Shown one piece after another: positions 12,741-40,929 of a stretch of DNA of 64,000 nucleotides (within the stretch, counting starts at the first letter, position 1; each line of letters starts with the position of its first letter). The position numbers and the translations under genes are program-made. The stretch is from Promineifilum sp. (lineage in GTDB: Bacteria > Chloroflexota > Anaerolineae > Promineifilales > Promineifilaceae), in assembly GCA_018058545.1 (NCBI GenBank), contig JAGOZU010000007.1, positions 1 to 64,000 on the forward strand. Direction: 5' to 3'. The notes under the pieces were generated by a model. It did not search any database. It was given only the letters and a program-made list of their open reading frames with translations, and was not told the origin of the DNA.

Positions 12741-14612
12741 ATGTGCGGCATTTGCGGCGAACTGCAATTCCATGATGGCCCAGCCCGCGATGGGGAGACG
12801 ATCACGCGCCTGAGCGAGATGATGGCCCGCCGTGGTCCCGACGATGCCGGTCTTTGGCGTGACGAGAGCCGGGCATGGCTGGCTTTTCGCCGTCTGGCTA
12901 TTCTCGATCTGTCGCCGGCCAGCCACCAGCCGATGTTGTCAGCCGATGGCCGTTTTGCCCTGGTGTTTAATGGCGAAATATACAATTTCGCCGAACTGCG
13001 CGATCAACTCGAGCGATTAGGCGCGAGGTTCCGTTCCCGTGGCGACACTGAGGTGGTATTGCAGGCACTGATCCATTGGGGCACGACGGCGCTGGAGCGC
13101 TTTAACGGCATGTTCGCGCTCGCGTTCTATGATCGGCAGAAGCGTGAACTGCTGTTGGCTCGTGACCATGCCGGAATCAAACCGCTCTATTATTTCCTCG
13201 ACCAGCGGGGACTATTCTTTGCCTCGCAGTACGATCAGATTATGGCCCATCCCTGGTGTGTCGAATTGCCGATTTCGACCGACGGGCTGGCTCTCTATCT
13301 GCGATTGGGTTATATCCCTGCGCCCTATGCCACCCTGGAGCGCACTAACATGCTTGAGCCAGGCTCTTGGCTCTGCCTCAGCGCCGAGGGGCGGGTTAGC
13401 CGCGGCACTTATTACACCTTCCCGATGCGCGGCACGCCTGGCCTGACCGGCCAGGAAGCTTGGGAGGCGGTCGACGCCGCCGTGGGTGACGCCGTTCGCC
13501 GCCAAATGGTCAGCGATGTACCGCTGGGCGCGTTCCTGTCCGGCGGTATCGATTCACCGCTTGTCGTCGCCAAGATGCAAGCCGCATCGAGCCGCCCCGT
13601 GCAAGCATACACAATCGGCAGCGCGGGCAGCATGCATGATGAATCGGAGGACGCGTCGGACTATGCGCGCCAGTTAAATGTCACGCATGTGCTCGAACAA
13701 TTCACGCCTGACAAGGTACTCGATTGGCTTGACGATGCTGTGGCCGCATGTGGCGAGCCTTTCGCTGATTTCTCAATATTCCCAACCCTGATGGTCTCCA
13801 ACCTGGCGCGTCGTGATATGACGGTGATGCTCGCCGGCGACGGCGGCGACGAGTTATTCTGGGGATATCCCGAGCGTTTTGGGTCTGTTCTCAAACTCGC
13901 CTCTGATTTTCGCCGGCCACATTGGCACCGCTCGACTCGTTGGGCGATACATCGAATGACGGGACTGGACAAAAACGCTCAGCCGAACCTGCGCTGGCCT
14001 ACAATAGGCCACTGGTACCGGCAAAAGCACACATGGTTTTCATCGGTTGCTTTGACGGCGATTTTCCCCACACTGCCGGCCTGGCCCGATGAGTTCACCC
14101 TCTATGATTACGACGGCTGGGATCTGGATGAGACGGCGCAATGGTTGCGCTGGAATGAGTTCACGGGCCACTTGGCAATGGTGTTGTTGAAAGTCGACCG
14201 AGCCAGCATGTATAACTCGCTTGAAGTGCGGGTCCCCTTGCTTGATCGGGAGGTAATCGAGGTGGCCACGCGTGTTGATTGGCGGTCTTGCCTGGACCTG
14301 GAGACGGATACCGGCAAAATCCCGTTACGCCGATCGTTGGAACGTCATATTTCGCACCAGACGAAGGCCAAACGAGGCTTTGCCATCCCCATGGCTGATT
14401 GGTTGCGAGGCCCTTTACAGGATGTGTTTATTGACCGGGTTCTATCTCGCCCTGAGATAGCAGGCCTGGCTATCGATCGAGCCGCATTAGAGAAATTATT
14501 GGCCGACCACGTGAGCGGCCGTGCCGACTATCACCGCAGTTTGTGGCTGCTACTAAGCCTGGTCATGTGGCGTGATAAACACTTCCAACCAACGGCTTTG
14601 CAGATTGCCTGA
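12741..14612 (+). CDS. asnB: Glutamine-hydrolysing asparagine synthase family protein
   Basis: A 623-residue class II amidotransferase of the AsnB family. Cys2 (MCGICGE) is the glutaminase nucleophile. RGPDD and the FNGEIYN segment (about residues 76-82) complete the N-terminal domain. The synthetase domain has the PP-loop LSGGIDSP (266-273) and AGDGGDE (365-371). All catalytic elements look intact. Location between glycan methyltransferases suggests amidation of a sugar acid, as by WbpS-type enzymes, but ordinary asparagine synthesis cannot be excluded. A GGGAGAGG ribosome site lies 5' of the ATG. Confidence 0.92.
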   Translation: MCGICGELQFHDGPARDGETITRLSEMMARRGPDDAGLWRDESRAWLAFRRLAILDLSPASHQPMLSADGRFALVFNGEIYNFAELRDQLERLGARFRSRGDTEVVLQALIHWGTTALERFNGMFALAFYDRQKRELLLARDHAGIKPLYYFLDQRGLFFASQYDQIMAHPWCVELPISTDGLALYLRLGYIPAPYATLERTNMLEPGSWLCLSAEGRVSRGTYYTFPMRGTPGLTGQEAWEAVDAAVGDAVRRQMVSDVPLGAFLSGGIDSPLVVAKMQAASSRPVQAYTIGSAGSMHDESEDASDYARQLNVTHVLEQFTPDKVLDWLDDAVAACGEPFADFSIFPTLMVSNLARRDMTVMLAGDGGDELFWGYPERFGSVLKLASDFRRPHWHRSTRWAIHRMTGLDKNAQPNLRWPTIGHWYRQKHTWFSSVALTAIFPTLPAWPDEFTLYDYDGWDLDETAQWLRWNEFTGHLAMVLLKVDRASMYNSLEVRVPLLDREVIEVATRVDWRSCLDLETDTGKIPLRRSLERHISHQTKAKRGFAIPMADWLRGPLQDVFIDRVLSRPEIAGLAIDRAALEKLLADHVSGRADYHRSLWLLLSLVMWRDKHFQPTALQIA

Positions 14613-16754: not shown

Positions 16755-18614
16755 ATGAGTAGCGATATCCTGGATCGATTCGCCATAGTAGCGCCAACGG
16801 AAGATTCATCCCGTGATGGCGCTCAGCCAATTACCTGTCTTGGTGATTGGCTCGTCTATAACGGTGATATTTCAATCCCACTGCCTTGTCGCACGCCCCA
16901 GGATCGCTGGCAGATGGGGGAGCAAGCAATAGGTTGGCGTTGGATGTCGACAAGCGAATCTAATGAATGGCGCGGCTCGCCTGCCTCTCTTGTGCGAACG
17001 AGTGACTGGGCGGCATGGCTGATCGGGGAGTTATACGGTATTTCGAATCCGGCCCAGGCCGTCATCGACATGCTGAAGGGTCAGGCGCCCGCGGATGGGT
17101 TGAACGGGCATTTCCTGTTGGTCGCCCTGGATAAACGTGCCGGCGAGTTACACGTCTGGACAGAACGCCACGCGACTCTCCATGCCTACCTGGCCACAGA
17201 CGGCGCCCGAACGGCTGTCGGCAGCTTTATGCCTGCAGTGGCCGCCGCAACCGGTCGCGTGGATTTGGATTGGGAAGGGCTGACCAGTTTCTTTGGTTTT
17301 GGCTTTTTCGCCGCCGACCGGACCCATTTCACCGGGGTGCGAATCCTTCGCCCGGCCACGCATTACCGGTTTGACGGACGTGGCCGCTTGCTGGCCGAGG
17401 AGCGCTACTGGCGATGGCATCATGCGCCCGATGTCTCGCGTTCCTACGACGAGACAGTGGAGGAGTTCGCCGGACTGTTTGCTTCCGTGATGAGAGACAT
17501 GGTGGTGGGCGGGCGGATCGCCTTCCCTATTTCCGGCGGCCTGGATTCGCGTTCCACAATTGCCACGATCCCCGCCGGACATTCCGACCTCAGTCGCTTT
17601 TGGTCTTTCTCCTACGGATATGGTCACGATTCTATCGAGACGGAGATCGCCGGCCGTGTCGCTGCGGCCCGTTCCCTGCCGTACACCCAATTTACCATCG
17701 AGCCTTACCTCTTCGATCGCCTGGATCAGATCCTGGGTGCTGTTGAGGGATTTCAGGATGTAACCATGGCGCGTCAGGCGGCCATCACCGACGCGATTCA
17801 TTGCAATGCCGACCGTGTAATTGCCGCCCATTGGGGCGATGTTTTTCTCGATGACATGGGTTTGACTGCCTATCCCCCCGGCTCAATGGCTCAAGACCAA
17901 CTGGTCGATAAAGTGCTGGCCAAGTTTTGCAAACCCTACGGTAGATTGCTGGACATTCTGTGCCGCCCGCGTCTAGGTGGATCCAATCCCGAGCAGGTTC
18001 TGCGCGGCTTTATTTCCGACGAAATGAACCGGCTGAAGGTTATCGCGGAACCGGACTTTTTTGTCAAGGCCTTCAAGACAGAGCAGTGGTCAGCTCGCTG
18101 GACAACGGCCAGCATCCGCATGTACCAGGCCGGTGCGTTCCCGCGATTGCCGTTTTATGATACGCGGATCTCTGACTTCTTTTCCACAGTTCCCACGGAG
18201 TTCGTTGCCGGGCGACGACTTCAAATCGACTATCTCAAACGGTATGCTCCTGATCTGGCGGCTGTGGCCTGGCAAGAGACGGGATCGAACCTGTTCAAAG
18301 TGGGGCAGCGCGATCCCTTGGCGCTCGCGCGTCGCGCCTTCAATAAAGGTCGCCGCATGGTAAGCGGCCGCCGGGTCATCGAGCGCAATTGGGAAGTACA
18401 GTTCCTGAATCCAAACGGCCGTCGTAGCCTTGAGCGCTGGTTGTTGCAACCGGGCCTTTTGCTCCATGACTTCATTTCCCCGAAACGATTGGCTGATGAG
18501 CTTGAAGCGTTTTATGCATCGCCTTGGGCAGATGTTAACCGGAGCTACCCGACCTCCATGTTGCTGACTTTTTCCGCGTGGCTGGAAGGACAAATCGGGG
18601 CGGCCAGGCGATGA
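16755..18614 (+). CDS. Asparagine synthase-like protein lacking the glutaminase cysteine
   Basis: A 619-residue protein with an AsnB layout. The PP-loop ISGGLDSR is intact at about 259-266. The N-terminal glutaminase-like domain is degenerate: the protein begins MSSDILDRF with no Cys2, and the NGxIYN-type motif is replaced by VYNGDIS. The usual GDGGDE motif is also replaced (AAHWGDVFLDDMG). It probably adenylates a carboxylate and uses another nitrogen donor, free ammonia, or forms an amide with a different amine. It is the second such gene in 4 kb. It starts 9 bp after the TPR gene and overlaps the next glycosyltransferase by 4 bp. Confidence 0.82.
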   Translation: MSSDILDRFAIVAPTEDSSRDGAQPITCLGDWLVYNGDISIPLPCRTPQDRWQMGEQAIGWRWMSTSESNEWRGSPASLVRTSDWAAWLIGELYGISNPAQAVIDMLKGQAPADGLNGHFLLVALDKRAGELHVWTERHATLHAYLATDGARTAVGSFMPAVAAATGRVDLDWEGLTSFFGFGFFAADRTHFTGVRILRPATHYRFDGRGRLLAEERYWRWHHAPDVSRSYDETVEEFAGLFASVMRDMVVGGRIAFPISGGLDSRSTIATIPAGHSDLSRFWSFSYGYGHDSIETEIAGRVAAARSLPYTQFTIEPYLFDRLDQILGAVEGFQDVTMARQAAITDAIHCNADRVIAAHWGDVFLDDMGLTAYPPGSMAQDQLVDKVLAKFCKPYGRLLDILCRPRLGGSNPEQVLRGFISDEMNRLKVIAEPDFFVKAFKTEQWSARWTTASIRMYQAGAFPRLPFYDTRISDFFSTVPTEFVAGRRLQIDYLKRYAPDLAAVAWQETGSNLFKVGQRDPLALARRAFNKGRRMVSGRRVIERNWEVQFLNPNGRRSLERWLLQPGLLLHDFISPKRLADELEAFYASPWADVNRSYPTSMLLTFSAWLEGQIGAARR

Positions 18615-26580: not shown

Positions 26581-27669
26581 ATGGTCAATACCGGGACGGT
26601 AGCTCCCTCAACTTCGACTGCATCCGCCACTTCCTTGCGGCTCTGCGTTGTCGGGCCCATGCTTGGCGTCAATCCCGGGTGGGTGACGACACAAGGAGAG
26701 GTGTTGGCCAATGCCCTGATTAGCGAAGGCTATCCGGTTCGGACCACTTCCCATATTCCGGCCCGCTTGTCGCGCTTGGTCGATACCTTGCGGTCGATCT
26801 ACGCCTGGCGGCATGAGATCGATCTCGTCATCCATCAGGTTTTCAGTGGCCCGGCTTTCGTCATCAATGATGCAGCCAGCTTACTGTGCCGATCATTGGG
26901 CCTGCGGCAGGTTTACGTTTTGCATGGCGGCTCTCTGCCGGAGTTCGCCATGTCCCGCAGGGGTTGGGTGCGGCGGGTGATGCGGCGGGCAGATGCTATC
27001 GTCGCGCCGTCGAGGTATCTGTCAGGCCTGGTCGAAGGGATTCCGGGGATCACCGGCCGGATTCGGGTTATCCCCAATATCCTGGCCATCGAGGAGTATC
27101 CTTATCGCCACCGGCGCGAAGTTCAGCCGCGGCTTCTGTGGATGCGAACCTTTCACCCCATTTACCATCCGGAGATGGCCGTCGATGTATTGGCGAATCT
27201 GCGGCAGACCCATCCCGTGGCGACGCTGATGATGGCCGGGCAAGAGAAGGGCTTGCATGCTCAGGTTCAGGAGAAGGCGCGGCAGATGGGTTTGGGCGAT
27301 GCGATACGTTTTCCCGGCTTTCTGGGGCCTGAGGACAAGGCGCGTGAGTTTGGGGTGCACGATATCTATCTGAACACTAACCACGTGGATAATATGCCGG
27401 TCAGCGTTGTGGAGGCGGCGGCGTTCGGTCTGCCAATCGTAGCCACCCGTGTCGGCGGTATCCCCTATTTGCTCTCCGACGACGAGACGGCTCTGTTAAC
27501 GCCTGACGGGGACGCCGAGGCGATGGCGGTGGCTGTCCGGCGACTGTTGAACGAACCGGGTCTGGCGGCGCGATTGTCGGCCAACGGCCGCGCGCTGGCT
27601 GAGAATTGCGCCTGGGAACAGGTCAAGGCACAATGGGAAGCCTTATTTCAGGAGCTGGCTGATGCCTGA
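26581..27669 (+). CDS. GT4-family glycosyltransferase
   Basis: A 362-residue glycosyltransferase with an early glycine-rich acceptor loop (VGPMLGVNPGWVTTQGEVLA) and a donor domain with the variant signature NMPVSVVEAAAFGLPIVATR near residue 272. The first 20 residues are Ser/Thr-rich and may be dispensable. It overlaps the following CapK-like gene by 8 bp, so the two are probably co-translated. Confidence 0.87.
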   Translation: MVNTGTVAPSTSTASATSLRLCVVGPMLGVNPGWVTTQGEVLANALISEGYPVRTTSHIPARLSRLVDTLRSIYAWRHEIDLVIHQVFSGPAFVINDAASLLCRSLGLRQVYVLHGGSLPEFAMSRRGWVRRVMRRADAIVAPSRYLSGLVEGIPGITGRIRVIPNILAIEEYPYRHRREVQPRLLWMRTFHPIYHPEMAVDVLANLRQTHPVATLMMAGQEKGLHAQVQEKARQMGLGDAIRFPGFLGPEDKAREFGVHDIYLNTNHVDNMPVSVVEAAAFGLPIVATRVGGIPYLLSDDETALLTPDGDAEAMAVAVRRLLNEPGLAARLSANGRALAENCAWEQVKAQWEALFQELADA

Positions 27670-29062
27670 TTGGTTCAAGATATACCATCGATTGCCCTAT
27701 CCCATGAAGGCTCTGGCCGCCAGCGCCCGTGGCCGCTATCTCAGTCGCTGGCGTTATGGCGTGGCTACTGAGTCGATGGCCGACGAATTCCTGTCGCACG
27801 AAAAGTGGAGCGACGAACAGTGGCGAGTGTGGTATGAGGAACGATTGGCCTTTGTCCTGCAACGGGCAGCCAAGGATGTGCCCTATTATCGGGAGCAATG
27901 GGCACGGCGACGGGCGGCAGGGGATCGAGTCTCTGTTGAGTATCTGGAGAACTGGCCGGTGCTGACCAAGGAAGCTCTTCGGACCGCGCCACGTGCTTTT
28001 CTGGCTGACGGCTGCGACCCCGGGGCGATGTTTTACGAGCATACCAGTGGTACGACAGGCAAGCCGCTCCATATCTGGCTGAGTCGGGAGACGGTGCAGG
28101 CCTGGTTCGCGCTTTTCGAGGCGAGGGCGCGGCGCTGGTATGGCGTGGATCGTCATACCTCGTGGGGCATTCTCGGCGGTCAGCTCATCGCGCCGGTTGA
28201 GCGCGACAAACCGCCGTTCTGGGTGTGGAACAAAGGCCTCAACCAGCTCTATCTCTCGGCCTATCACCTTGCGCCGGAGAACATCGCCGCCTATGTGGCC
28301 GCGATCAGGAAGCACGAGATCCGCTATCTGCTTGGCTATCCGTCCGCCCTCTACCGATTGGCGCGAGAACTCCTCGATCAGGGGTTGGATGCGCCACGGA
28401 TGCAGGTAGCTATCGGCAATGCCGAGCCGCTACTCGATCACCAACGGGAGGTTATTGCTGCGGCCTTCGATTGCCCGGCCCGTGAAACCTATGGCATGGC
28501 CGAGATCGCTGCTGCGGCAAGCGATTGCGAGCAAGGACGACTCCACGTCTGGCCGGAGGCGGGCTACATCGAGATTTTCGCCGATACGGCTGATGAGCTT
28601 GTTTCCGTCGGGCGATCGGGGCGGCTCGTCGCCACTGGCCTGATGAACGCCGACATGCCGCTGATTCGTTATGAGACGGGCGACCGGGCGACGATGGCTG
28701 CCGAGGCGTGTGCCTGTGGCCGCTCGTTGCCGGTCTTGCAAGCCATCGAGGGACGCGTCGATGATGTCGTTGTCACTCGTGACGGCCGGCATATCGGCCG
28801 CCTCGATCCCGTTTTTAAGGCCGACCTGCCCATTATTGAGGCCCAGATCATTCAGGAAGATTTGGACACGTTGCGTGTGCTCTACGTGCCCACCGCGACT
28901 TATTCCGAGACGGATGGCGCGTCGCTGGTACAGCGTATCCACGATCGAACCGGCGACGATATGCGCGTCATCCTGGAGGCGGTCGAGGCTGTGCCGCGGA
29001 CGGCAAACGGCAAGTTTCGCGCCGTCATCTCGCTCGTCGACCGCGAGGAGGAGGTGTCATGA
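27662..29062 (+). CDS. Phenylacetate-CoA ligase/CapK-like adenylate-forming protein
   Basis: A 466-residue protein of the PaaK/CapK branch of the ANL superfamily. The P-loop-like motif EHTSGTTGKPLHIWLS lies at about residues 127-142. RETYGMAEIAAAA (about 277-289) is the adenylation A5-type motif, and a C-terminal lid with VPRTANGKFRAVI follows. True PaaK enzymes act in aromatic degradation; CapK-type relatives are common in capsule and exopolysaccharide clusters, with unknown substrates. The neighbours argue for the second role, perhaps activation of an acyl or amino-acid substituent for the glycan. Confidence 0.85.
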   Translation: MPDWFKIYHRLPYPMKALAASARGRYLSRWRYGVATESMADEFLSHEKWSDEQWRVWYEERLAFVLQRAAKDVPYYREQWARRRAAGDRVSVEYLENWPVLTKEALRTAPRAFLADGCDPGAMFYEHTSGTTGKPLHIWLSRETVQAWFALFEARARRWYGVDRHTSWGILGGQLIAPVERDKPPFWVWNKGLNQLYLSAYHLAPENIAAYVAAIRKHEIRYLLGYPSALYRLARELLDQGLDAPRMQVAIGNAEPLLDHQREVIAAAFDCPARETYGMAEIAAAASDCEQGRLHVWPEAGYIEIFADTADELVSVGRSGRLVATGLMNADMPLIRYETGDRATMAAEACACGRSLPVLQAIEGRVDDVVVTRDGRHIGRLDPVFKADLPIIEAQIIQEDLDTLRVLYVPTATYSETDGASLVQRIHDRTGDDMRVILEAVEAVPRTANGKFRAVISLVDREEEVS

Positions 29063-31461: not shown

Positions 31462-33387
31462 ATGAAGAACATGGATAACGAAAATAAAGCCGGACAGATC
31501 AGTCGACGGCAGTTTTTGCAAGGCTCAGCGGCCATCGTGGGCGGAGTCGCTTTGGGACGTATCTTGCCAGTGATAGCCGCGCCACCCCTGCGGCCGATGC
31601 AAAAGCCGTCAGTGATCAGCGTCATGGATCCGGTCTTTGGGGCGAAAGGAGATGGGGCAACTAACGACCGCGACGCCTTCCAGGCAGCCATCGATGCCGC
31701 TGTGAAAGCCGAAGTGCCGCTCTATGTCCCCCGACCGCCCCAGTTCTACCGCATTGGGTTGGATCCAAACCATGACCGGCTGCTTGTCCCCGGAGACCTG
31801 GCCATTATGGGTGATGGGCGCCTGACGACAACCTTGCGCTTCACCGTGAGCACGACGACCAGCGGCAAGAACTATTTCGCTTTCTTCGTGCCGGGTGGGG
31901 TCGACTTTCACATCGCAAATCTACGACTGGAAGAGGATCTCCACCAACCGGTTGAGCAATTCGAATTCATGGGCATATTTTTGCAGCCGTCCAAGGCTGA
32001 CAACATATGTGTCGTGGAATCAGTCGATATCGACGGCTTCACCCATTGTCTCTACTCTCCCTCGTCTGGTGACGATAGCAGCGATGGCGAATTGTTTCTG
32101 ACTGTGCGCGATTGTGATTTGCATCCGTGGTGGACATTTTGTATCGGCTTGTGGACTGTGGCGGGCGGGCACAAGCGCTTGCATATTTACGACAGCTATC
32201 TCCACGACAACCAGAACGGGCATCTGGTATACACCCACCCCCACAACTCGGTCTATGTCGAGAACACGCGTTTCGATGGAGCCAGCTCGTGGGCGTTTCA
32301 CTTCCAGGGGACGGAGGTGGCCGGGAATCCTGAGTACCAGCGCTTCGTCGGCTGCTGGTTTGGCCCGCGTAATAGTCGCGCGTTGATCACGCAGGATCGC
32401 GAGGCGGTAGCCATTCAGGTCGAAGTGTATAACTGTATCTTTGAGGCGGCTCCAGCCATTCAGATCCGCTCGGATATTATCATCGATGGATGTTATTTCA
32501 CCTCGGCGAAAGGACTATCCAGCACCTCCGGATATGTGGCGGCTTACAGTAACTCTCCCTGGCGAGCCACCCTCCGTAATTGCATCTTTGCGCCAAAGAG
32601 TAATGCTTTACCGCAAGTCGATCTTCGCCTGGAAAGTATCGGGGTCGATATTGAAAATTGCCAGTTTTATAACCAGGGCACGGGGACAATCCTAAGCCTG
32701 GGGACGGGTGGGTCCAATCGTTATACAGTCAAGGATTGCCTCTTTTATAATCGGGCGGACAATGCTTCATACTCCATTTCGGTCGAGATCGATAACGGTC
32801 AGGCATTGATCGAGAGATGCCGTTTTATCGGTCGCACAACCGGAGATCGTGGCGTCTTTCTTTGCGGCAGCAAGGATGGCGGGCCGTCGGCTGAATCGTT
32901 CCTGCAGGTTGACAACTGCACGTTCCAGGATATTAGTGGCGGCACACTTTTCCATGTCATGCAGCCCACCAACCCCGGCTGGAGTGGCCGAATAGTCGGC
33001 AGCAACAATCGGATCAACAATTTCCTGAGCGGCAAGCCGTTGCTGGTAGCCGAGTCCCCCGTACCGATCATTGGTCGCCTGACACCCATAAGCGGTTGGG
33101 CGCCGACCCCCGTGCCGGCCGGGCCGACCCTGGTTGTTTCAAGCAATTACGATTCGTTCGATATTCTCGGTACAGCTGATGTTGCCAATATCCATTGGTG
33201 GACAGCCGATGGCCTCTCCAACACAATCTTCACCGGCGCGATTACGCTGGTGGCTACTGTGTCGTTCTCGCTCGTTACCGGCGGGAACATCCTGTTGGCC
33301 GGTGGCGCGTCACGCCGTGACGTACCGGCCGCGGGATCGGTGAGGCTGGTATACGATCCGGCACAGGGCTATTGGAGCGAGGGCTAG
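31462..33387 (+). CDS. Tat-exported pectate-lyase-like beta-helix protein
   Basis: A 641-residue protein. The N-terminus has a twin-arginine signal (SRRQFLQG at about 14-21, hydrophobic stretch to about 40). SVMDPVFGAKGDGATNDRDA (about 50-69) is the hallmark opening of the Pectate_lyase_3 superfamily, and right-handed beta-helix repeats follow to about residue 540. The last 100 residues look like a separate beta-rich domain. Catalytic residues cannot be assigned. In polysaccharide loci such proteins often trim or release the polymer, but it could be a structural glycan-binding protein. A GGGAAG ribosome site precedes the start. Confidence 0.83.
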   Translation: MKNMDNENKAGQISRRQFLQGSAAIVGGVALGRILPVIAAPPLRPMQKPSVISVMDPVFGAKGDGATNDRDAFQAAIDAAVKAEVPLYVPRPPQFYRIGLDPNHDRLLVPGDLAIMGDGRLTTTLRFTVSTTTSGKNYFAFFVPGGVDFHIANLRLEEDLHQPVEQFEFMGIFLQPSKADNICVVESVDIDGFTHCLYSPSSGDDSSDGELFLTVRDCDLHPWWTFCIGLWTVAGGHKRLHIYDSYLHDNQNGHLVYTHPHNSVYVENTRFDGASSWAFHFQGTEVAGNPEYQRFVGCWFGPRNSRALITQDREAVAIQVEVYNCIFEAAPAIQIRSDIIIDGCYFTSAKGLSSTSGYVAAYSNSPWRATLRNCIFAPKSNALPQVDLRLESIGVDIENCQFYNQGTGTILSLGTGGSNRYTVKDCLFYNRADNASYSISVEIDNGQALIERCRFIGRTTGDRGVFLCGSKDGGPSAESFLQVDNCTFQDISGGTLFHVMQPTNPGWSGRIVGSNNRINNFLSGKPLLVAESPVPIIGRLTPISGWAPTPVPAGPTLVVSSNYDSFDILGTADVANIHWWTADGLSNTIFTGAITLVATVSFSLVTGGNILLAGGASRRDVPAAGSVRLVYDPAQGYWSEG

Positions 33388-34110
33388 ATGAGCGGCTCGG
33401 ATACGGGGTCTGAGTCCACGTCTGAAGCTGCCCGTATTCGCGAAGCTTACAGCGGCCGCCTGGCTCGCATGACGGAGGCCGGGGCTTATTCGCCGGCAAA
33501 CCCGGCCTACCTGTTTGCGATTCAGGGTAGACAACGGGCCATCCTGTCCGGCTTGCGTCAGGAGGGATTGTTTCCCCTTGGCGACAAGGACATTCTCGAA
33601 GTCGGTTGCGGTTCGGGGGGTGTCCTCCAGGAGCTGCTTGGCTACGGCGCCGATCCTCGCCGTTTGTTTGGGGTCGATCTCCTCCCCGAACGTTTGGCTC
33701 AGGCCCGCGCGCGCTTGCCTCATCTGCCGGTGAGTTGCGCTTCGGGAACAGACTTGCCTTACCCCACTAATTCATTTGACCTTCTCTTACAATTCACGGT
33801 GTTTTCATCGATTTTGGATCGAGGCATCTGCTATACTGTCGCTAGTGAAATGCTTCGAGTGTTGCGTCCCGGTGGCGCAATCCTTTGGTACGATTTCTGG
33901 ATCAACCCGATTAACAAGCAGACGCGAGGGATTAAACCAGCGGAGATCAAGGATTATTTTCGAGGATGCCGGTTCACATTTAAACGGATCACCCTGGCCC
34001 CGCCACTGGCGCGACGGCTTGTGCCATTGACCTGGATCGGCGGATTATTTCTGGAGAAGCTGAAATTTCTTAACACCCACTACCTGGCCATTATTCGACC
34101 AAACGAGTGA
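33388..34110 (+). CDS. Class I SAM-dependent methyltransferase
   Basis: A 240-residue methyltransferase with motif I ILEVGCGSGGVLQELLGYGA (about residues 70-89), GVDLLPERLAQARAR and RPGGAILWYDFW. Its ATG follows the stop of the beta-helix gene directly (no spacer), with GGAGCGAGG in front. Its place next to the sugar-phosphate transferase suggests glycan or lipid-intermediate methylation. Confidence 0.85.
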   Translation: MSGSDTGSESTSEAARIREAYSGRLARMTEAGAYSPANPAYLFAIQGRQRAILSGLRQEGLFPLGDKDILEVGCGSGGVLQELLGYGADPRRLFGVDLLPERLAQARARLPHLPVSCASGTDLPYPTNSFDLLLQFTVFSSILDRGICYTVASEMLRVLRPGGAILWYDFWINPINKQTRGIKPAEIKDYFRGCRFTFKRITLAPPLARRLVPLTWIGGLFLEKLKFLNTHYLAIIRPNE

Positions 34111-34113
34111 GAC

Positions 34114-35832
34114 ATGAACGAAAGCATCGCCCAACGGCCTCATAAAAACGATGTCAAACTCACAGCCGGGTTTTCTGAACTCGCCGGACTGGTCGATAGT
34201 TTCGCCCGCCGGACGCTCGATATCGTCATCTCCGGATTGGGCATTATCATCCTGGCTCCCGCCTTTTTACTGATCGCCATTTTGATCAAACGTGACTCTC
34301 CCGGCCCCATCTGCTACTGGGGCGATCGAGTGGGGCGGGGCGGCCGACCGTTTCGTATCCTCAAATTTCGGACGATGTACGAGACGGCCGACAGCTATCG
34401 CGGCCCCAAGGTCACCGGCCAGAACGATTCGCGCATCACCCCGCTGGGGCAATGGTTGCGCGATACAAAAATCAACGAGCTGCCACAATTGTGGAATGTC
34501 CTGCGAGGCGATATGAGCCTGGTGGGGCCGCGACCGGAAGACCTGGATTTTGTGGCTCACTGGCCCGATGACGTTCGTCAGGTTTTACTCTCCGTGCGCC
34601 CCGGAATCACCAGCCCGGCATCGGTCCTCTATCGTAACGAGGAAAGCATGCTGCAGGCGGGTAATGTGGTCGACCAATATTTGAAGGTCATCCTGCCCAG
34701 CAAGCTTCGTCTGGATTTGCTGTACGTTCACCATCGCTCGTTCCTGACGGATCTGGATGTAATCTTCTGGACTTTATTGGCCCTGTTGCCGGCGTTGAAG
34801 TCGCGACGTGTGCCCGAACATCTGTTATTCTGGGGTCCGCTGGCGAGGTTCATCAGCCGTTATTTTTCCTGGTTCATTCTCGATGGGCTGGTAGCTTTCG
34901 TGGCCGTGGCCGTCACAGGATTGCTGTGGCGCAGCAATGGGCCGCTGGAACTGGGCTGGGGCATCGCCGTGGGGGTGGCATTTGCCATCTCCGTCATTTT
35001 CAGCGCGGTGAACGCCCTGCTGGGTATCGGTCGTGTGGTCTGGTCGTGGGCCGATTTTAACGATGCGTTCTCGCTGGCCGCCTCTTCGGGACTGACGACG
35101 CTGATCCTGCTGGTGGCCAATCTGGTGTGGCAGCCGCGCGATATTTATGTCCCCTACCTGGGTTATCGCTTGCTGCCGTCCGGCCTCATCATGGTCAGTG
35201 GTGTCCTCGCTTTTGCCGGGTTTGTCCTCTTGCGCTACCGCATGCGCATCATCACCGGCCTGTCGGAACATTGGATCACGTTGCGAGGTGCGTCTTCGAT
35301 CGTCGGCGAGCGCGTGCTCATCGTCGGGGCAGGAGAGGTCGGCAATCTGGGCGTCTATCTTCTGCGCAAGGCGGAGTTGGGTCAGGTTTTTTCCATCGTC
35401 GGCATGGTCGATGATTCTCCCCGCAAACAAGGGGCGAGGATCGGCGGCATACAGGTTCTCGGCCGCACGGAAGAAATCCCGCAGCTGGTCAGCCTCCATG
35501 ATATCGGGCTGATCCTGTTTGCCATCGAAAACATCCGGCGGCCGCAACGGGATTCTATCCTGCAGGCCTGCCGCAATACGGGCGTGCAGACGGTCGTTCT
35601 GCCCGATATGCTGGAAGCCTTGCGCGAGCAGTTGTCTGCCCACGATGGGCGAGGACTATCATCCAACGGCATCTACGCGGTCCGAACGCCAGGTGGGGCC
35701 GGGCAGATCAATCGCAGCGGGCCACAACTCGATCAATGGCTGATGGAGATGGATCGTCTGATGGAGGCCGGGGAATGGGACGAAGCCCATGCCCGGGTCC
35801 TGGCTATGCAGAACAGGATGGAAACGCGCTAA
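34114..35832 (+). CDS. Sugar-phosphate transferase with permuted domain order
   Basis: A 572-residue fusion. The N-terminal catalytic domain is a bacterial sugar transferase that attaches sugar-1-phosphate to undecaprenyl phosphate: membrane helix 33-58, RDSPGP at 60-65, KFRTMYE at 84-90 and GDMSLVGPRPE at 132-142. Four hydrophobic helices follow (about 250-376), then a Rossmann CoA_binding_3-like domain starting VLIVGAGEVGNLG at 401. In usual WcaJ/WbaP proteins the helices and Rossmann domain come first and the transferase last, so this one is in reverse order. It begins 3 bp after the methyltransferase stop. Probably the initiating enzyme for glycan repeat synthesis. Confidence 0.85.
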   Translation: MNESIAQRPHKNDVKLTAGFSELAGLVDSFARRTLDIVISGLGIIILAPAFLLIAILIKRDSPGPICYWGDRVGRGGRPFRILKFRTMYETADSYRGPKVTGQNDSRITPLGQWLRDTKINELPQLWNVLRGDMSLVGPRPEDLDFVAHWPDDVRQVLLSVRPGITSPASVLYRNEESMLQAGNVVDQYLKVILPSKLRLDLLYVHHRSFLTDLDVIFWTLLALLPALKSRRVPEHLLFWGPLARFISRYFSWFILDGLVAFVAVAVTGLLWRSNGPLELGWGIAVGVAFAISVIFSAVNALLGIGRVVWSWADFNDAFSLAASSGLTTLILLVANLVWQPRDIYVPYLGYRLLPSGLIMVSGVLAFAGFVLLRYRMRIITGLSEHWITLRGASSIVGERVLIVGAGEVGNLGVYLLRKAELGQVFSIVGMVDDSPRKQGARIGGIQVLGRTEEIPQLVSLHDIGLILFAIENIRRPQRDSILQACRNTGVQTVVLPDMLEALREQLSAHDGRGLSSNGIYAVRTPGGAGQINRSGPQLDQWLMEMDRLMEAGEWDEAHARVLAMQNRMETR

Positions 35833-35923: not shown

Positions 35924-36916
35924 ATGAGTGAGTGGAGCGGCAAACGCGTTCTGGTGACGGGTGCGGGCGGTTTTATCGGCAGTCAACTGGTCGAGTCGCT
36001 GGTGCTGGACGGCGCCGACGTTCGCGCTTTCGTGCGCTATAACTCGCGGGGTGATGCCGGATTGCTGCGCCAATTGCCGGTCGGCGTCATTCGCGAATTG
36101 GACGTCGTGGCCGGGGACTTGCGCGATACGGCCGCCATCGACCGGGCTGTCCGTGGCATCGATTTCGTTTTTCATCTGGGCGCGATCATCTCCATTCCCT
36201 ACTCCTACAAACATCCGATGGAGACGGCCGAGACCAACTTTATGGGCACGCTTAACGTCCTGATGGCCTGCCTGACCCACGGCGTCGAGCGACTGATCCA
36301 TACATCGACCAGCGAGGTCTACGGCACTGCCCAATTCACGCCAATGGATGAGAGCCATCCCCTGCAGGGACAATCGCCTTATTCGGCCAGCAAGATCGGG
36401 GCCGACAAATTGGTGGAGAGTTTCTATCGCTCCTATAACCTCCCGGCCGTCACCGTTAGGCCTTTCAATACCTACGGCCCGCGTCAGTCAGCTCGCGCCG
36501 TCATCCCGACCATCATTACCCAGGCCCTGACTGAAGAATGTATCCATCTGGGTAATCTGGATTCACGACGGGATTTTACCTACGTGCGCGATACCGTGTC
36601 TGGATTCATTCGCGCCGCCCAGGCCGAGGATGTCCTTGGCCAGGAGTTGAATCTGGGTACAGGGACGGATATCAGCATCGGCGAATTGGCCGACCGGATC
36701 ATCCGTCTGGTCGATCGACCGGTTGAGATAATCACCGAGTCGGAGAGAATGCGGCCGGAAAAATCCGAGGTGATGCGTCTGATGTCGGACAACGGTTTGG
36801 CCCGGCACGCGCTGGGCTGGGAACCGGCCTATTCATTGGAAGACGGTCTGCGCGAGACTATCAGCTGGATAGGCGACCATATCGATTTTTATCATGTCGG
36901 ACGGTATGAGATTTAG
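35924..36916 (+). CDS. NAD-dependent sugar epimerase/dehydratase (SDR, LegB-like)
   Basis: A 330-residue extended SDR enzyme. NAD-binding TGAGGFIG is at residues 12-19, the catalytic Tyr153 and Lys157 are in YSASK, and HTSTSEVYG gives the catalytic Ser/Thr strand. The HLGAIISIPYSYKHP and RPFNTYGPRQSARAVIPTII stretches resemble LegB-type NDP-sugar 4,6-dehydratases. With the nucleotidyltransferase and the PLP aminotransferase that follow, it would make an NDP-4-keto-6-deoxy sugar and then an amino sugar. The base nucleotide and sugar are uncertain, and no sialic-acid synthase gene is present. Confidence 0.88.
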   Translation: MSEWSGKRVLVTGAGGFIGSQLVESLVLDGADVRAFVRYNSRGDAGLLRQLPVGVIRELDVVAGDLRDTAAIDRAVRGIDFVFHLGAIISIPYSYKHPMETAETNFMGTLNVLMACLTHGVERLIHTSTSEVYGTAQFTPMDESHPLQGQSPYSASKIGADKLVESFYRSYNLPAVTVRPFNTYGPRQSARAVIPTIITQALTEECIHLGNLDSRRDFTYVRDTVSGFIRAAQAEDVLGQELNLGTGTDISIGELADRIIRLVDRPVEIITESERMRPEKSEVMRLMSDNGLARHALGWEPAYSLEDGLRETISWIGDHIDFYHVGRYEI

Positions 36917-36946: not shown

Positions 36947-37711
36947 ATGAAAGCCGTCATTTTGGCCGGGGGCAAGGGCACGAGGCTCAAACCCTACACA
37001 ACGATTTTACCGAAGCCGCTGATGCCCATCGGTGATATGCCGATTCTGGAGATTTTGCTGCGGCAGATGAAACGCGCCGGAATCAATGAGGCGGTCCTGA
37101 CGGTGGGACATCTGGCCGAGATGCTGCGGCTCTTCTTCCAGGATGGCCGGAAACTCGGCATGAATATCACCTATAGCTATGAAGAGGCTCCTCTGGGGAC
37201 GGCCGGCCCTCTGTCGCTGATCGACGGACTGGACGAAACCTTCATGGTCGCCAACGGTGATGTATTGACGACCTTGCCTCTGACCAGCCTGCTGGATCAT
37301 CACCGACTCAGTGGCGCGGCGGCCACCATCGCCATGCACCACCGCAAGGTCCACATCGATCTGGGTGTGATCGAGCAAAATGACGACGGCCACGTGACCG
37401 GCTACATCGAAAAGCCGACCTATGATTTCATGGTCAGCATGGGCATCTATGTGTTCGAGCCGCGCGTGCTGGATTTCATCCCGCGCAATCAATATCTTGA
37501 TTTTCCCGACCTGGTCAAACGACTGATCGCCGCGGGCGAGATCGTCGCCGGTTTCCCCTTCGACGGCTACTGGCAAGACCTGGGTCGGGCGGACGATTAC
37601 GAACGGGCGGTTGAGGACTTCGATCGGATGCGGTCGCTATTTCTGCCGCCCGACAAACCGGCTATTTTGTCGACCAACGGCTCCGGCAAGCATATTCAAC
37701 CGGTGGGGTGA
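36947..37711 (+). CDS. Sugar-phosphate nucleotidyltransferase
   Basis: A 254-residue enzyme that charges a sugar-1-phosphate with a nucleotide. LAGGKGTRLKPYTTILPKPL (residues 6-25) is the complete nucleotidyltransferase signature. ANGDVLT and YIEKPTYDF are the metal and sugar contacts. There is no C-terminal hexapeptide acetyltransferase domain. Similarity to mannose-1-phosphate guanylyltransferases is apparent, but the nucleotide is not certain. It lies 30 bp after the dehydratase gene. Confidence 0.88.
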   Translation: MKAVILAGGKGTRLKPYTTILPKPLMPIGDMPILEILLRQMKRAGINEAVLTVGHLAEMLRLFFQDGRKLGMNITYSYEEAPLGTAGPLSLIDGLDETFMVANGDVLTTLPLTSLLDHHRLSGAAATIAMHHRKVHIDLGVIEQNDDGHVTGYIEKPTYDFMVSMGIYVFEPRVLDFIPRNQYLDFPDLVKRLIAAGEIVAGFPFDGYWQDLGRADDYERAVEDFDRMRSLFLPPDKPAILSTNGSGKHIQPVG

Positions 37712-37718
37712 CTGAGAA

Positions 37719-38921
37719 ATGGAAGCGATGAAACCTGTGTGGCGAATCCCGCTGGCCGACATCGACCTTGGCCCTGAAGAAGAGGCGGCCGTCCTCGAGG
37801 TGCTGCGACGGCGCTGGCTGTCGATGGGCGAGGTGACGGCCGCTTTTGAGGCTGATTTTTCGGCGCTCACCGGCGCGCGACACGCACTGGCCGTCACCAA
37901 TTGCACGGCCGCGCTCCATCTGGCCGGGCTGGCTTTGGATTGGAAGCAGGGAGATGAGGTTATTGTGCCGTCGCTGACCTTCGTCGCCACGGCTAATGCC
38001 GTTCGCTACACCGGGGCCACGCCTGTCTTCGCCGACGTGACCGGCGAGAATGACTTCAGCCTGTCGGCCGCGGATGTGGCCGAGCGCATCACGCCGCACA
38101 CGCGAGCGATCATCGTCGTTCATTATGCCGGGCACGCGGCCAATATGCCGGCTATCATGGCTCTGGCGGAGCGGCACGGCCTGGATGTCGTTGAGGATGT
38201 GGCCCACGCGCCCGGAGCAAGCTTGGATGGTCAAGCTCTGGGAACGTGGGGCCGGATCGGCTGCTTCAGCTTCTTCGCCAATAAAAACATGACCACCGGC
38301 GAAGGCGGCATGCTGATGACGGATGACGACGGGTTGGCCGAGCGACTGCGGTTACTCCGCTCACACGGCATGACCAGCCTGACCTGGGATCGCCACAAGG
38401 GGCATGCCTGGAGCTATGATGTCGTCGCGCCCGGCTATAACTATCGGCTCGACGAGATTCGCGCCGCCATCGGCCGCGTCCAACTGGCCAAACTGGAGAA
38501 TGCCAATTCACGTCGCCGCACGCTCGATGCTCTATATCGTGAATTTTTACCGGCGGCCGCTCCCTCAATCGGTATACCCTATTCCACTACTCGGGGTATC
38601 CCTTCCTGCCATTTACGGCCGGTGCTATTGCCGAAGGGGACGGATCGGACGCAGTTTATGGCTGCGATGAAGGCCCAGGGTATCCAAACGAGTATTCATT
38701 ATCCGCCGGTGCATGGCTTTAGCTATTACCGGCAAGTGGGTGGGCCGTCGCTGCCCGTCACCGAAGAGGTCGGTGCGCGGGAGGTTACATTACCGCTATA
38801 TCCGGCCATGACACCGGCCGATGTCGAGAGCGTCGTCGCGGCCGTGGCCGGGTCGCTGACAGAAGTGCAGCATCAATTTAACGGCCGTCAGACAGAACGT
38901 CAGTTGCCTCAGGTTAAATAA
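37719..38921 (+). CDS. DegT/DnrJ/EryC1/StrS sugar aminotransferase
   Basis: A 400-residue PLP enzyme that aminates NDP-keto-sugars. The PLP lysine is K189 in FFANKNMTTGEGGML. EDVAHAPGA and the opening IPLADIDLGPEEEAAVLEVL are standard for the family. It completes a three-gene set with the dehydratase and nucleotidyltransferase for an amino-deoxy sugar precursor. An in-frame ATG at 37728 is an alternative start. Confidence 0.9.
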   Translation: MEAMKPVWRIPLADIDLGPEEEAAVLEVLRRRWLSMGEVTAAFEADFSALTGARHALAVTNCTAALHLAGLALDWKQGDEVIVPSLTFVATANAVRYTGATPVFADVTGENDFSLSAADVAERITPHTRAIIVVHYAGHAANMPAIMALAERHGLDVVEDVAHAPGASLDGQALGTWGRIGCFSFFANKNMTTGEGGMLMTDDDGLAERLRLLRSHGMTSLTWDRHKGHAWSYDVVAPGYNYRLDEIRAAIGRVQLAKLENANSRRRTLDALYREFLPAAAPSIGIPYSTTRGIPSCHLRPVLLPKGTDRTQFMAAMKAQGIQTSIHYPPVHGFSYYRQVGGPSLPVTEEVGAREVTLPLYPAMTPADVESVVAAVAGSLTEVQHQFNGRQTERQLPQVK

Positions 38922-39000: not shown

Positions 39001-40929
39001 ATGGAACTAAAATTAATCGGACAGATGCTTCGACGGTGGTCCTGGCTATTGGTGATCGGCATTCTGATAGGTGGCGGCGCCGGTTATGCCATCAGCATCT
39101 ATCAAACGCCGGAATACATGGTCCGGACGAAATTGCTTGTGATGGAGCCGCTCGGCACCAATGTCAATAAGGCCAACAATCTAAACGATAAAGCGCTGGC
39201 TGAAACCTATATGGAGCTATTGCGGACGCAACCGATCCTTGAGTCGGCCAGCCAGAAAGTCGGCAAGACGATCAAGAGCGAGAACATCAAAGTCTCCCGC
39301 GTGAGAGAGACCGGCATGCTGGAAGTGACTGTGCGTGATACCGATCCGCAGGTCGCGGCGCTGATGGCCAATGTCCTGGTTGAGGTACTCATTGAGTATA
39401 ACGAGGCGCTGCAGATGTCGCGGTTCTCCTCCTCGGAGCAGAGCCTTCAGCTCCAGGTCAGTGAAATCGAAAGCGAGCTGGGGCGGCTGGAGGCCAACAT
39501 CGCGCAACGTTCCGAATCCAATGTGGAGGAACTGCGTCGCGCGGTTGATGAACAGAAAGCCGATCTGGAGCAGAAAATCTTCGCAGTTCAAGGCGAAATC
39601 GCCCGCCTGGAACAAGATATCGACGATTTGACCCCCAAATCGCTGCCGAATGAGTTGCCACCACCGCTAACGTTGGAGCAACGCAACCTGCTGAACGAAA
39701 AGCGCACACAACTTTCCCAGAAGCAGTTCTTGCTCGATCTGTATAAGCAGACCTATTTCAAGCTGGTATTGGAGGATAATCCCGCGGCAGTGAGTACAAC
39801 CACCGGCCTGGAGAATATGGAGCAGGCCAATCTGAACCTCTACCGCCAGCTCTATTCCACTCTGCAGAGCAACTACGAGGCGGCCCGCTTGGCACGCCTG
39901 CAAAATACGCCCAATGTGGTTCAAGTGGAGCGCGCTACCCCGCCGACCGCGCCCATCCAGGCCGGTCCGCTGCGCTTTATCGCTCTGGGTGCGATCATCG
40001 GCCTTCTCGTCACCGGCCTGATCGCCTTTATCCTTGAGTACATGGATGATACCCTCAAGACGCCGCAGGACATCACCAATGTCCTGGGGTTGCCGGTCAT
40101 CGGTTCCGTGGTCAATGAATCGGGGATGGTGAAGCAGGAGGGGACGCCCTATGTATCAGTCCATCCGCGTTCGCCGATGGCGGAGACGTTCCGCACGCTG
40201 CGCACCAATCTCGAATTCGCCAGCGTCGATAAGCCGTTGAAGACGATTCTCATCACCAGCCCCGGCATGAGCGAAGGCAAGACGACCGTCGCCTCGAACC
40301 TGGCGGCAGTGATGGCCCAGGCCAATAAGCGGGTGATTTTGCTGGAAGGCGACCTGCGGCGGCCGCGGATTCATACCGCTTTGGGTATGTCGAATCAGGT
40401 CGGTCTGAGCGATGTCTTCCGTGGCCAGATGGATATTCGTGACGTAGCTCGCTACTCCAAGGTGAAGGACCTGGCGGTTATCACGAGCGGCGCGTTGCCG
40501 CCGAATCCGGCTGAGTTGTTGGGGTCGGTCCGTATGACTCAGATTCTGGCCCGGCTGGTCGAATCCGCTTCGGTGGTCATCATAGACAGCCCGCCCTTTG
40601 TGGTCACTGATTCGACGGTCCTGGCCTCCAAGGTCGACGGGGTGCTGCTGGTCATCCAACCGGGCAAGACCCATGCCGAGGCGGCGCGCACCATGCTGGC
40701 TCAACTCAATCGCGCCGGCGCCAATGTCGTCGGCGTGGTCCTCAATCGCGTCTCGCGCAAGGCAGCCGGGAACTACTATGGTTACTATCGCTATGAAAGC
40801 GAGCCGGTTGTTGTTACCGATCCGGTATCGACTGAGCGAGTCGCGACCAGCCCTCGTAAAGGTTTGGCCACGATGTTTAGCGGTAATGGCAAGAAGGTTG
40901 CCGGAGATGTCAGTGAGGAAGTCGCCTGA
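39001..40929 (+). CDS. Wzz/BY-kinase fusion (chain-length regulator and tyrosine autokinase)
   Basis: A 642-residue protein combining a Wzz chain-length domain (helix 16-34, periplasmic coiled-coil region about 130-300, second helix about 325-345) with a cytoplasmic CapB-type tyrosine kinase. Walker A is SPGMSEGKTT at 420-429. Walker A' reads LLEGDLRRP from 448, with Glu in place of the first usual Asp. Walker B is VVIIDSPP. A tyrosine-rich stretch (YYGYYRY, 592-598) lies near but not at the C-terminus. BY-kinases control polymerisation and chain length in Wzy-type systems. It begins 79 bp after the aminotransferase gene. Confidence 0.92.
   Translation: MELKLIGQMLRRWSWLLVIGILIGGGAGYAISIYQTPEYMVRTKLLVMEPLGTNVNKANNLNDKALAETYMELLRTQPILESASQKVGKTIKSENIKVSRVRETGMLEVTVRDTDPQVAALMANVLVEVLIEYNEALQMSRFSSSEQSLQLQVSEIESELGRLEANIAQRSESNVEELRRAVDEQKADLEQKIFAVQGEIARLEQDIDDLTPKSLPNELPPPLTLEQRNLLNEKRTQLSQKQFLLDLYKQTYFKLVLEDNPAAVSTTTGLENMEQANLNLYRQLYSTLQSNYEAARLARLQNTPNVVQVERATPPTAPIQAGPLRFIALGAIIGLLVTGLIAFILEYMDDTLKTPQDITNVLGLPVIGSVVNESGMVKQEGTPYVSVHPRSPMAETFRTLRTNLEFASVDKPLKTILITSPGMSEGKTTVASNLAAVMAQANKRVILLEGDLRRPRIHTALGMSNQVGLSDVFRGQMDIRDVARYSKVKDLAVITSGALPPNPAELLGSVRMTQILARLVESASVVIIDSPPFVVTDSTVLASKVDGVLLVIQPGKTHAEAARTMLAQLNRAGANVVGVVLNRVSRKAAGNYYGYYRYESEPVVVTDPVSTERVATSPRKGLATMFSGNGKKVAGDVSEEVA

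Follow-up and report, generated by a model that had tools for sequence, protein, structure and literature searches.

A Chloroflexota clade of monotopic PGT homologues with Asn in the catalytic dyad and a PglF-like membrane-Rossmann module

Gene content and conservation of the locus

The window, i.e. the whole stretch of 64,000 nucleotides analysed here, contains a glycan locus in which one gene encodes a PGT domain, predicted membrane helices and a Rossmann domain in a single chain (Table 1), called the fusion protein in the following. Its reading frame starts three bases past the methyltransferase gene, and 91 bases separate it from the SDR gene. Further proteins encoded in the cluster are a Wzm/Wzt-type ABC transporter, Wzy_C proteins and a number of glycosyltransferases. 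The product of the operon-encoded pathway would be an NDP-4-amino-4,6-dideoxy sugar.

Some additional genes of the locus can be mentioned here. Just upstream, at 31462-33387, lies the gene for a beta-helix protein with a TAT-like signal, which occurs in the same place only in same-genus loci. Moreover, two asparagine-synthase-like proteins (12741-14612 and 16755-18614, the second match being weak) and an AMP-binding-like protein (27662-29062; weak Pfam match under the cut-off) are encoded in the window; relatives of the latter occur in many of the clusters under comparison.

Table 1. Features of the fusion gene and its neighbours in the window
Feature	Position	Strand	Evidence
SAM methyltransferase, directly upstream	33388..34110	+	PF08241
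PGT-TM-Rossmann fusion protein, 572 aa, ATG start, TAA stop	34114..35832	+	
Monotopic PGT domain, about aa 28-229	34195..34800	+	PF02397; PDB sequence matches to WbaP and PglC; predicted fold
Re-entrant helix motif D-X12-P (D36...P49)	34219..34260	+	34/34 members
E90, clade-specific carboxylate right behind KFRTMY	34381..34383	+	33/34 members, 0/13 nearest DE relatives
N121 (AAC), site of Asp in the Asp-Glu dyad	34474..34476	+	N in 34/34 members; alignment to WbaP
E122, dyad Glu, kept	34477..34479	+	34/34 members
Four predicted membrane helices, about aa 247-377	34819..35245	+	Hydropathy; grouping with PglF-type modules by HMM and tree
Rossmann domain, CoA_binding_3 type, about aa 395-510	35296..35643	+	PF13727; PDB 3nkl match, E 5.7e-6
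LegB-like soluble SDR 4,6-dehydratase	35924..36916	+	TIGR04180, 414 bits, below cut-off of 475
Sugar-1-phosphate nucleotidyltransferase, conserved neighbour	36947..37711	+	PF00483; best NCBIfam match mannose-1-phosphate guanylyltransferase, far under cut-off
DegT-family sugar aminotransferase (PseC/LegC-like), conserved neighbour	37719..38921	+	PF01041; PseC, 337 bits, under cut-off
Wzz/Wzc-type chain-length determinant and tyrosine autokinase	39001..40929	+	PF02706; TIGR01007, 165 bits, above cut-off

The separate SDR dehydratase gene behind the fusion gene, which the original prediction had already pointed out, holds its position well beyond the window. A LegB-like SDR follows the gene immediately or almost immediately in 30 of the 34 loci, namely in 26 of the 29 other member loci, three of the four loci added later and the window itself, and these SDRs are 59-88% identical to that of the window. 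At locus L256, only an SDR with 28% likeness follows. The nucleotidyltransferase, the DegT aminotransferase and the Wzc-type protein come next in the majority of the loci; several of the contigs are truncated. None of the 33 other member loci that were fetched with flanks contains a second PGT ORF, and the fusion ORF is the sole PF02397 match on the window contig, with seven others on the other contigs of the genome. In the phylum sample, all 19 genomes with a member carry at least one PGT motif with the Asp-Glu dyad (DE) elsewhere in the genome. Among the DE-type PGTs, long proteins with a GT2-like N-terminal extra part, as judged by eye, were seen at L003 (own genome of the window, contig C87), L029, L035 and L104.

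Domain architecture

Pfam places Bac_transf (PF02397) on aa 32-225 with 191 bits (E 1.3e-56) and CoA_binding_3 (PF13727) on aa 367-497 with 25.6 bits, which is barely above the cut-off of 25. Between both domains, hydropathy reveals hydrophobic segments at about aa 247-274, 276-310, 317-339 and 352-377. An SDR (Polysacc_synt_2) catalytic domain is absent from the 572-aa protein according to Pfam and HMM searches, and the module appended to the PGT carries no catalytic domain. The helix bundle and CoA_binding_3 are located C-terminal to the PGT domain, which is the opposite of large monotopic PGTs. Two separate parts of the protein match the model TIGR03025 (EPS_sugtrans); the strongest match is that of the C-terminal part of the model (positions 246-439) to aa 20-225. 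Hence, the order proposed from the sequence, with the catalytic domain first and the helices and Rossmann domain after it, is confirmed by the Pfam search suggested at that time and by hydropathy, and it is found family-wide in 34 members. The altered membrane topology that had been considered as well is not indicated, since the DX12P motif is kept and the four helices would return the chain to the same side.

Distribution

The reversed order of PGT, helices and Rossmann domain is common to 34 distinct members from different assemblies. Four families of the class are represented among them, together with one MAG that bears the label Herpetosiphon. Identical sequences and fragments were left out of the trees, the last of which contained these 34 members, and the long-branch rows L032 and L108 were dropped from the careful PGT tree. 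The genome of the window is a 185-contig assembly; its nearest named relative is the MAG Promineifilum sp. (L009) with 81% identity. A colinear copy occurs in all eight same-genus genomes, the window's own genome counted, and also in G013 and G022 from the same family.

In a sample of 400 phylum genomes, 20 loci in 19 genomes align near full length with at least 541 bits to an 11-row alignment (A1). Beneath them, only G226 (340 bits) and partial or fused matches were found. The G226 sequence (L060) was considered as a reversed DE protein without dehydratase and rejected, as its ORF is cut by the contig end (L089) and may belong to a truncated fusion; it is counted neither among the dehydratase-less members nor among the five full fusions described below. 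Among 366 class genomes, 28 gave matches at E<=1e-90, and 25 of these hold 26 loci of the window type, while the other three have a longer frame of 853-933 aa. The family f119 was first met in this class-wide search. The member from the MAG labelled Herpetosiphon (L010) sits deep in the clade beside L043, which comes from another class by label; this may reflect a transfer or a mislabelled bin.

Beyond the phylum, the scope comprised plasmids, viral contigs and one genome-contig scan. The plasmid search yielded 1007 matching records, all with less than 60% identity; the best three places are L112 and L113, each with two adjacent genes for a PGT and then a dehydratase, and L111, a record without annotation. 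No relative was found in the viral contigs scanned with the family alignment. The genome-contig scan returned two loci, both labelled Chloroflexota or Promineifilum.

Independent of this family, some unusual architectures came up during the searches. On the IMG/VR contig 3300037195_001204, which is classed as viral, a PGT (L136) and a PglF-type dehydratase (L236) are encoded close together. Furthermore, L102:2148-6413 (minus strand) encodes a PglF-type dehydratase of 1422 aa with approximately 770 additional C-terminal residues, and L103:5667-8447 (minus strand) a large PGT of 927 aa, the N-terminal region of which includes an SDR-like stretch.

Origin of the two halves

The two halves of the fusion protein group with different proteins. 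In the PGT trees, the front half clusters with small PGTs. In the module tree (53 rows), the back half falls inside the PglF group (SH-aLRT 95), and the modules of large PGTs stand apart (91). The helix-Rossmann HMM scored 38-144 bits on 10 PglF-type modules versus 18-47 bits on 10 N-termini of large PGTs, with overlapping low ends. The original prediction was thus right that the back half resembles the front half of FlaA1/PglF and not that of WcaJ, but in place of the rearranged WcaJ/WbaP protein that it envisaged there is a small PGT joined to the N-terminal half of a PglF-type dehydratase.

Possible intermediates of such a fusion exist. A small PGT gene is situated immediately before a PglF-type gene at L026, L062, L064 and L110 as well as in Rhizobium (L112) and Deinococcus (L113), and full fusions with the order PGT-helices-Rossmann-SDR are present at L021, L024, L260, L261 and L262. 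In the concatenated tree, the 34 rows with Asn-Glu (NE) form one clade (100/100), which is nested among the fused or adjacent DE sets of PGT and PglF. All 34 proteins without SDR domain are NE, and all five full fusions with SDR domain are DE. Because of the adjacent pairs, the full fusions and the module tree, we regard the fusion protein as the product of two neighbouring genes that very probably fused, one for a small monotopic PGT and one for a PglF-type dehydratase, and as having lost the catalytic domain of the latter afterwards. A combined alignment (A6), which put PglF modules onto the PGT part, was not folded.

Regarding the fusions that keep the dehydratase, no such LegB gene was found in the fetched parts around L260, L261 and L262, an absence that weighs little because L260 and L262 are cut. 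Relatives of the DegT and Wzc proteins are present in the L261 locus. The DE fusion L260, which belongs to family f119 and has the dehydratase, is preceded by a GT2 gene of the type that also precedes many NE members.

Replacement of the dyad Asp by Asn

The dyad Asp is the attacking nucleophile in monotopic PGTs, and D-to-N mutants of PglC and WbaP are reportedly dead. The motifs of the window protein had been described as intact, which is correct for KFRTM and GPRPE, but the stretch that is LDELPQ in the remaining PGTs reads INELPQ, and N121 takes the place of the dyad Asp in the alignment to WbaP. Asn was found at this position in 30/30 members of alignment A2 and in the four added later, i.e. 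in 34/34. In contrast, Asp occupies it in the 43 other PGT domains aligned and in all five fusions retaining the dehydratase. The 43 were scored by alignment column and include L008, in which the search pattern could read no dyad motif and which was counted for neither state in the trees. The change of the dyad state maps once, with the NE sequences forming one side of a 100/100 branch even with the dyad column masked.

An independent DNA search with the pattern N-E-hydrophobic-P-Q-hydrophobic-x-N-hydrophobic gave 22 matches in 20 of the 400 phylum genomes, 20 of the matches being member loci, and the Asp version of the pattern has matches in 329 of the 400. The two extra NE matches (L125 and L133) are not PGTs. 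Both Asn codons are used by the 30 members (AAC 19, AAT 11), therefore it is the amino acid and not the base that is kept.

In PglC numbering, the active site of monotopic PGTs comprises the dyad D93-E94 together with K59, R88 and R111 (excerpts of PMC12802240). According to the accessible text of PMC10519829, the dyad is present in every superfamily member and catalysis proceeds via a covalent intermediate; covalent catalysis is attributed to DE in excerpts of PMC10653937, and those of PMC12802240 likewise call the Asp-Glu dyad universal and link it to covalent catalysis. With N121-E122, the window protein departs from the Asp-Glu dyad of the superfamily, although both the Bac_transf domain (191 bits) and the monotopic PGT fold (Z 18.4-20.7 to PglC and WbaP) are present. 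As a homologue of monotopic PGTs with one defining feature missing, it is therefore not a certified member by function.

Constraint and predicted fold of the PGT domain

Among 30 members, the mean pairwise identity amounts to 62% in the PGT domain, 40% in the TM helices and 44% in the Rossmann domain. The dN/dS ratio of the PGT part ranges from 0.05 to 0.26 in nine pairs, four of them with dS >1, which indicates purifying selection. Unchanged in all 34 members are D36 and P49 of the DX12P motif, the equivalents of PglC K59, R88, R111 and D168 (K84, R116, R140 and D213), and also M88 and E122; the residue list is that of PMC12802240 in excerpt, and the PglC numbers were placed on the window protein by motif. 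On the same branch as N121, E90 (33/34), W150 (34/34) and D215 (34/34) became fixed, and they are missing at those places in the 13 nearest DE relatives. However, the PGT from the viral contig (L136) combines an intact DE dyad with a Glu at the E90-like place, therefore E90 is not specific for the loss of the Asp.

An AlphaFold2 model of the PGT part, calculated with 28 sequences, reached pLDDT 91.0 and pTM 0.84. A full-length model from three sequences had a pLDDT of 40.5 and was set aside. Foldseek found four matches to the PGT model at E<=0.001, which are PglC chains and WbaP. In the VIA comparison, solely PglC and WbaP appeared above Z 3.0, with Z values between 18.4 for the lowest and 20.7 for WbaP 8t53 (rmsd 6.6, 170 aligned residues); PglC 8e37 gave Z 19.0 (rmsd 2.9, 179 aligned). 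The predicted structure thus indicates that the PGT fold is kept in the fusion protein, but a shared fold is no proof of activity.

Possible function and alternative explanations

With regard to the history of the protein, it is very probable that a small monotopic PGT gene fused with the PglF-type membrane dehydratase gene behind it, that the dehydratase catalytic domain was then lost in the lineage, leaving the PGT, four helices and the Rossmann domain, and that dehydration was handed to the separate LegB-like enzyme of the adjacent gene. The branch on which the dyad Asp turned into Asn also saw the fixation of E90, W150 and D215. The resulting protein would be placed in the membrane like an initiating PGT, with the operon-made NDP-4-amino-4,6-dideoxy-type sugar, Mg2+ and undecaprenyl phosphate as ligands, and would carry out or gate the first membrane step. 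It would manage without the usual aspartyl-phosphosugar intermediate, in that the sugar phosphate is transferred directly or another carboxylate, E122 or the newly fixed E90, stands in for the lost Asp. The Rossmann domain could act as a nucleotide sensor. Such a function has been proposed for the Rossmann domain of WbaP, which belongs to the same family, and WbaP is inhibited by UMP (apparent IC50 4.1 uM; accessible text of PMC10942596). By analogy, the domain of the fusion protein may sense uridine nucleotides.

Judging from sequence, we assign a probability of about 0.45 to the assumption that the fusion protein still carries out or gates the initial membrane step of a surface-glycan pathway, using an altered chemistry. 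We favour activity because the PGT is the best conserved part of the protein, no other PGT was found in its cluster and new invariant residues were acquired. Against this stand the established mechanism and the DE motifs elsewhere in all 19 member genomes of the phylum sample, which make initiation in trans possible. The more detailed picture remains tentative and is rated somewhat lower, namely that of an initiating sugar-phosphate transferase clade that abandoned the covalent-dyad Asp for other chemistry (either direct transfer or relocation of the carboxylate to E90 or E122), possibly with its sugar supply switched from a fused PglF-type dehydratase to the LegB-nucleotidyltransferase-aminotransferase operon.

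Altered chemistry is ranked just ahead of its closest competitor, a double pseudoenzyme, which we consider a serious alternative albeit one that we would not bet on. It assumes that a bifunctional PGT-dehydratase ancestor lost both activities and became a scaffold or sensor that binds NDP-sugar and undecaprenyl phosphate. Such a protein would hold the enzymes of the LegB-aminotransferase pathway to the membrane or regulate a DE PGT that acts in trans. The Asn is near-isosteric with Asp, and such a site would bind without turnover. The loss of the Asp in 34/34 members together with the dehydratase domain on the same branch fits well to this idea, as do the DE motifs elsewhere in the 19 genomes and the sensor function proposed for the WbaP Rossmann domain (PMC10942596, in its accessible text). 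However, it is difficult to reconcile with a PGT domain that is the most conserved part of the protein and in which all other catalytic residues compared are invariant, that is the sole PGT in its cluster at every locus fetched, and in which new invariant residues arrived with the change of the Asp.

Other explanations are much less probable. If N121 was deamidated to Asp in the folded protein, the ordinary covalent mechanism would be restored in a site that is otherwise standard as far as compared. But Asp is only one base change away, and Asn has nevertheless been retained with both codons. Moreover, deamidation of Asn is favoured by Gly as the next residue in the chain, whereas N121 is followed by Glu, so that we consider this improbable. 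A circular permutation of a large PGT, in which the WcaJ/WbaP domains were swapped, would explain the same Pfam domains in opposite order and the two-stretch match of TIGR03025, but appears still a little less probable in view of the clustering of the front half with small PGTs, the position of the back half in the PglF group apart from the large-PGT modules, and the HMM scores despite their low-end overlap. Finally, a join error in assembly or sequencing, which had been named as the finding that would overturn the original prediction, can practically be dismissed: no point in its favour was found, and the identical order occurs in 34 distinct sequences from different assemblies, colinear in 8/8 same-genus genomes and at the 20 loci of the phylum sample.

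Relation to known systems and significance

Compared with the small monotopic PGTs such as Campylobacter PglC and Bacillus subtilis EpsL, the front domain of the window protein is homologous, has the same predicted fold and shares DX12P and the equivalents of K59, R88, E94, R111 and D168, but it has Asn for the dyad Asp and a membrane-Rossmann module fused behind it. With the large monotopic PGTs (WcaJ, WbaP, EpsZ), it shares the kinds of domains, whereas their order is opposite, the PGT and TM-Rossmann lineages are others and the dyad is broken. The membrane dehydratases of the PglF/FlaA1/EpsC type have helices and a Rossmann domain homologous to its back half; unlike them, the window protein is devoid of the SDR catalytic domain, and the separate LegB-like gene supplies the dehydratase. 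The five full fusions, which are placed around the clade in the tree, have the same order of PGT, helices and Rossmann domain but retain the SDR domain and the DE dyad. The bifunctional monotopic PGTs (Bi-PGTs) described in the accessible text of PMC10942596 carry an extra domain on the N- or C-terminus of the PGT. The window protein likewise has a domain fused to its PGT, but the fused part, which may have a ligand-sensing role, lacks a catalytic domain, and the dyad is broken. The same part of this source remarks on the helix-Rossmann module shared with PglF; neither the dehydratase-less reversed order nor an NE dyad is described there. A literature search for pseudo-PGTs, PGT-dehydratase fusions, this domain order and D93N gave no recognisable description; the 2021 PNAS survey of the superfamily was outside its scope, so that absence from print is not established.

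A natural clade in which the Asp is replaced and all else compared is kept provides a ready-made test of whether the covalent intermediate is obligatory. If it is dead, the fusion protein would be a PGT pseudoenzyme. Furthermore, the series from gene pair to fusion with dehydratase and to fusion without dehydratase bears on the question, raised in the accessible text of PMC10942596, of why the helix-Rossmann module is common to PGTs and dehydratases.
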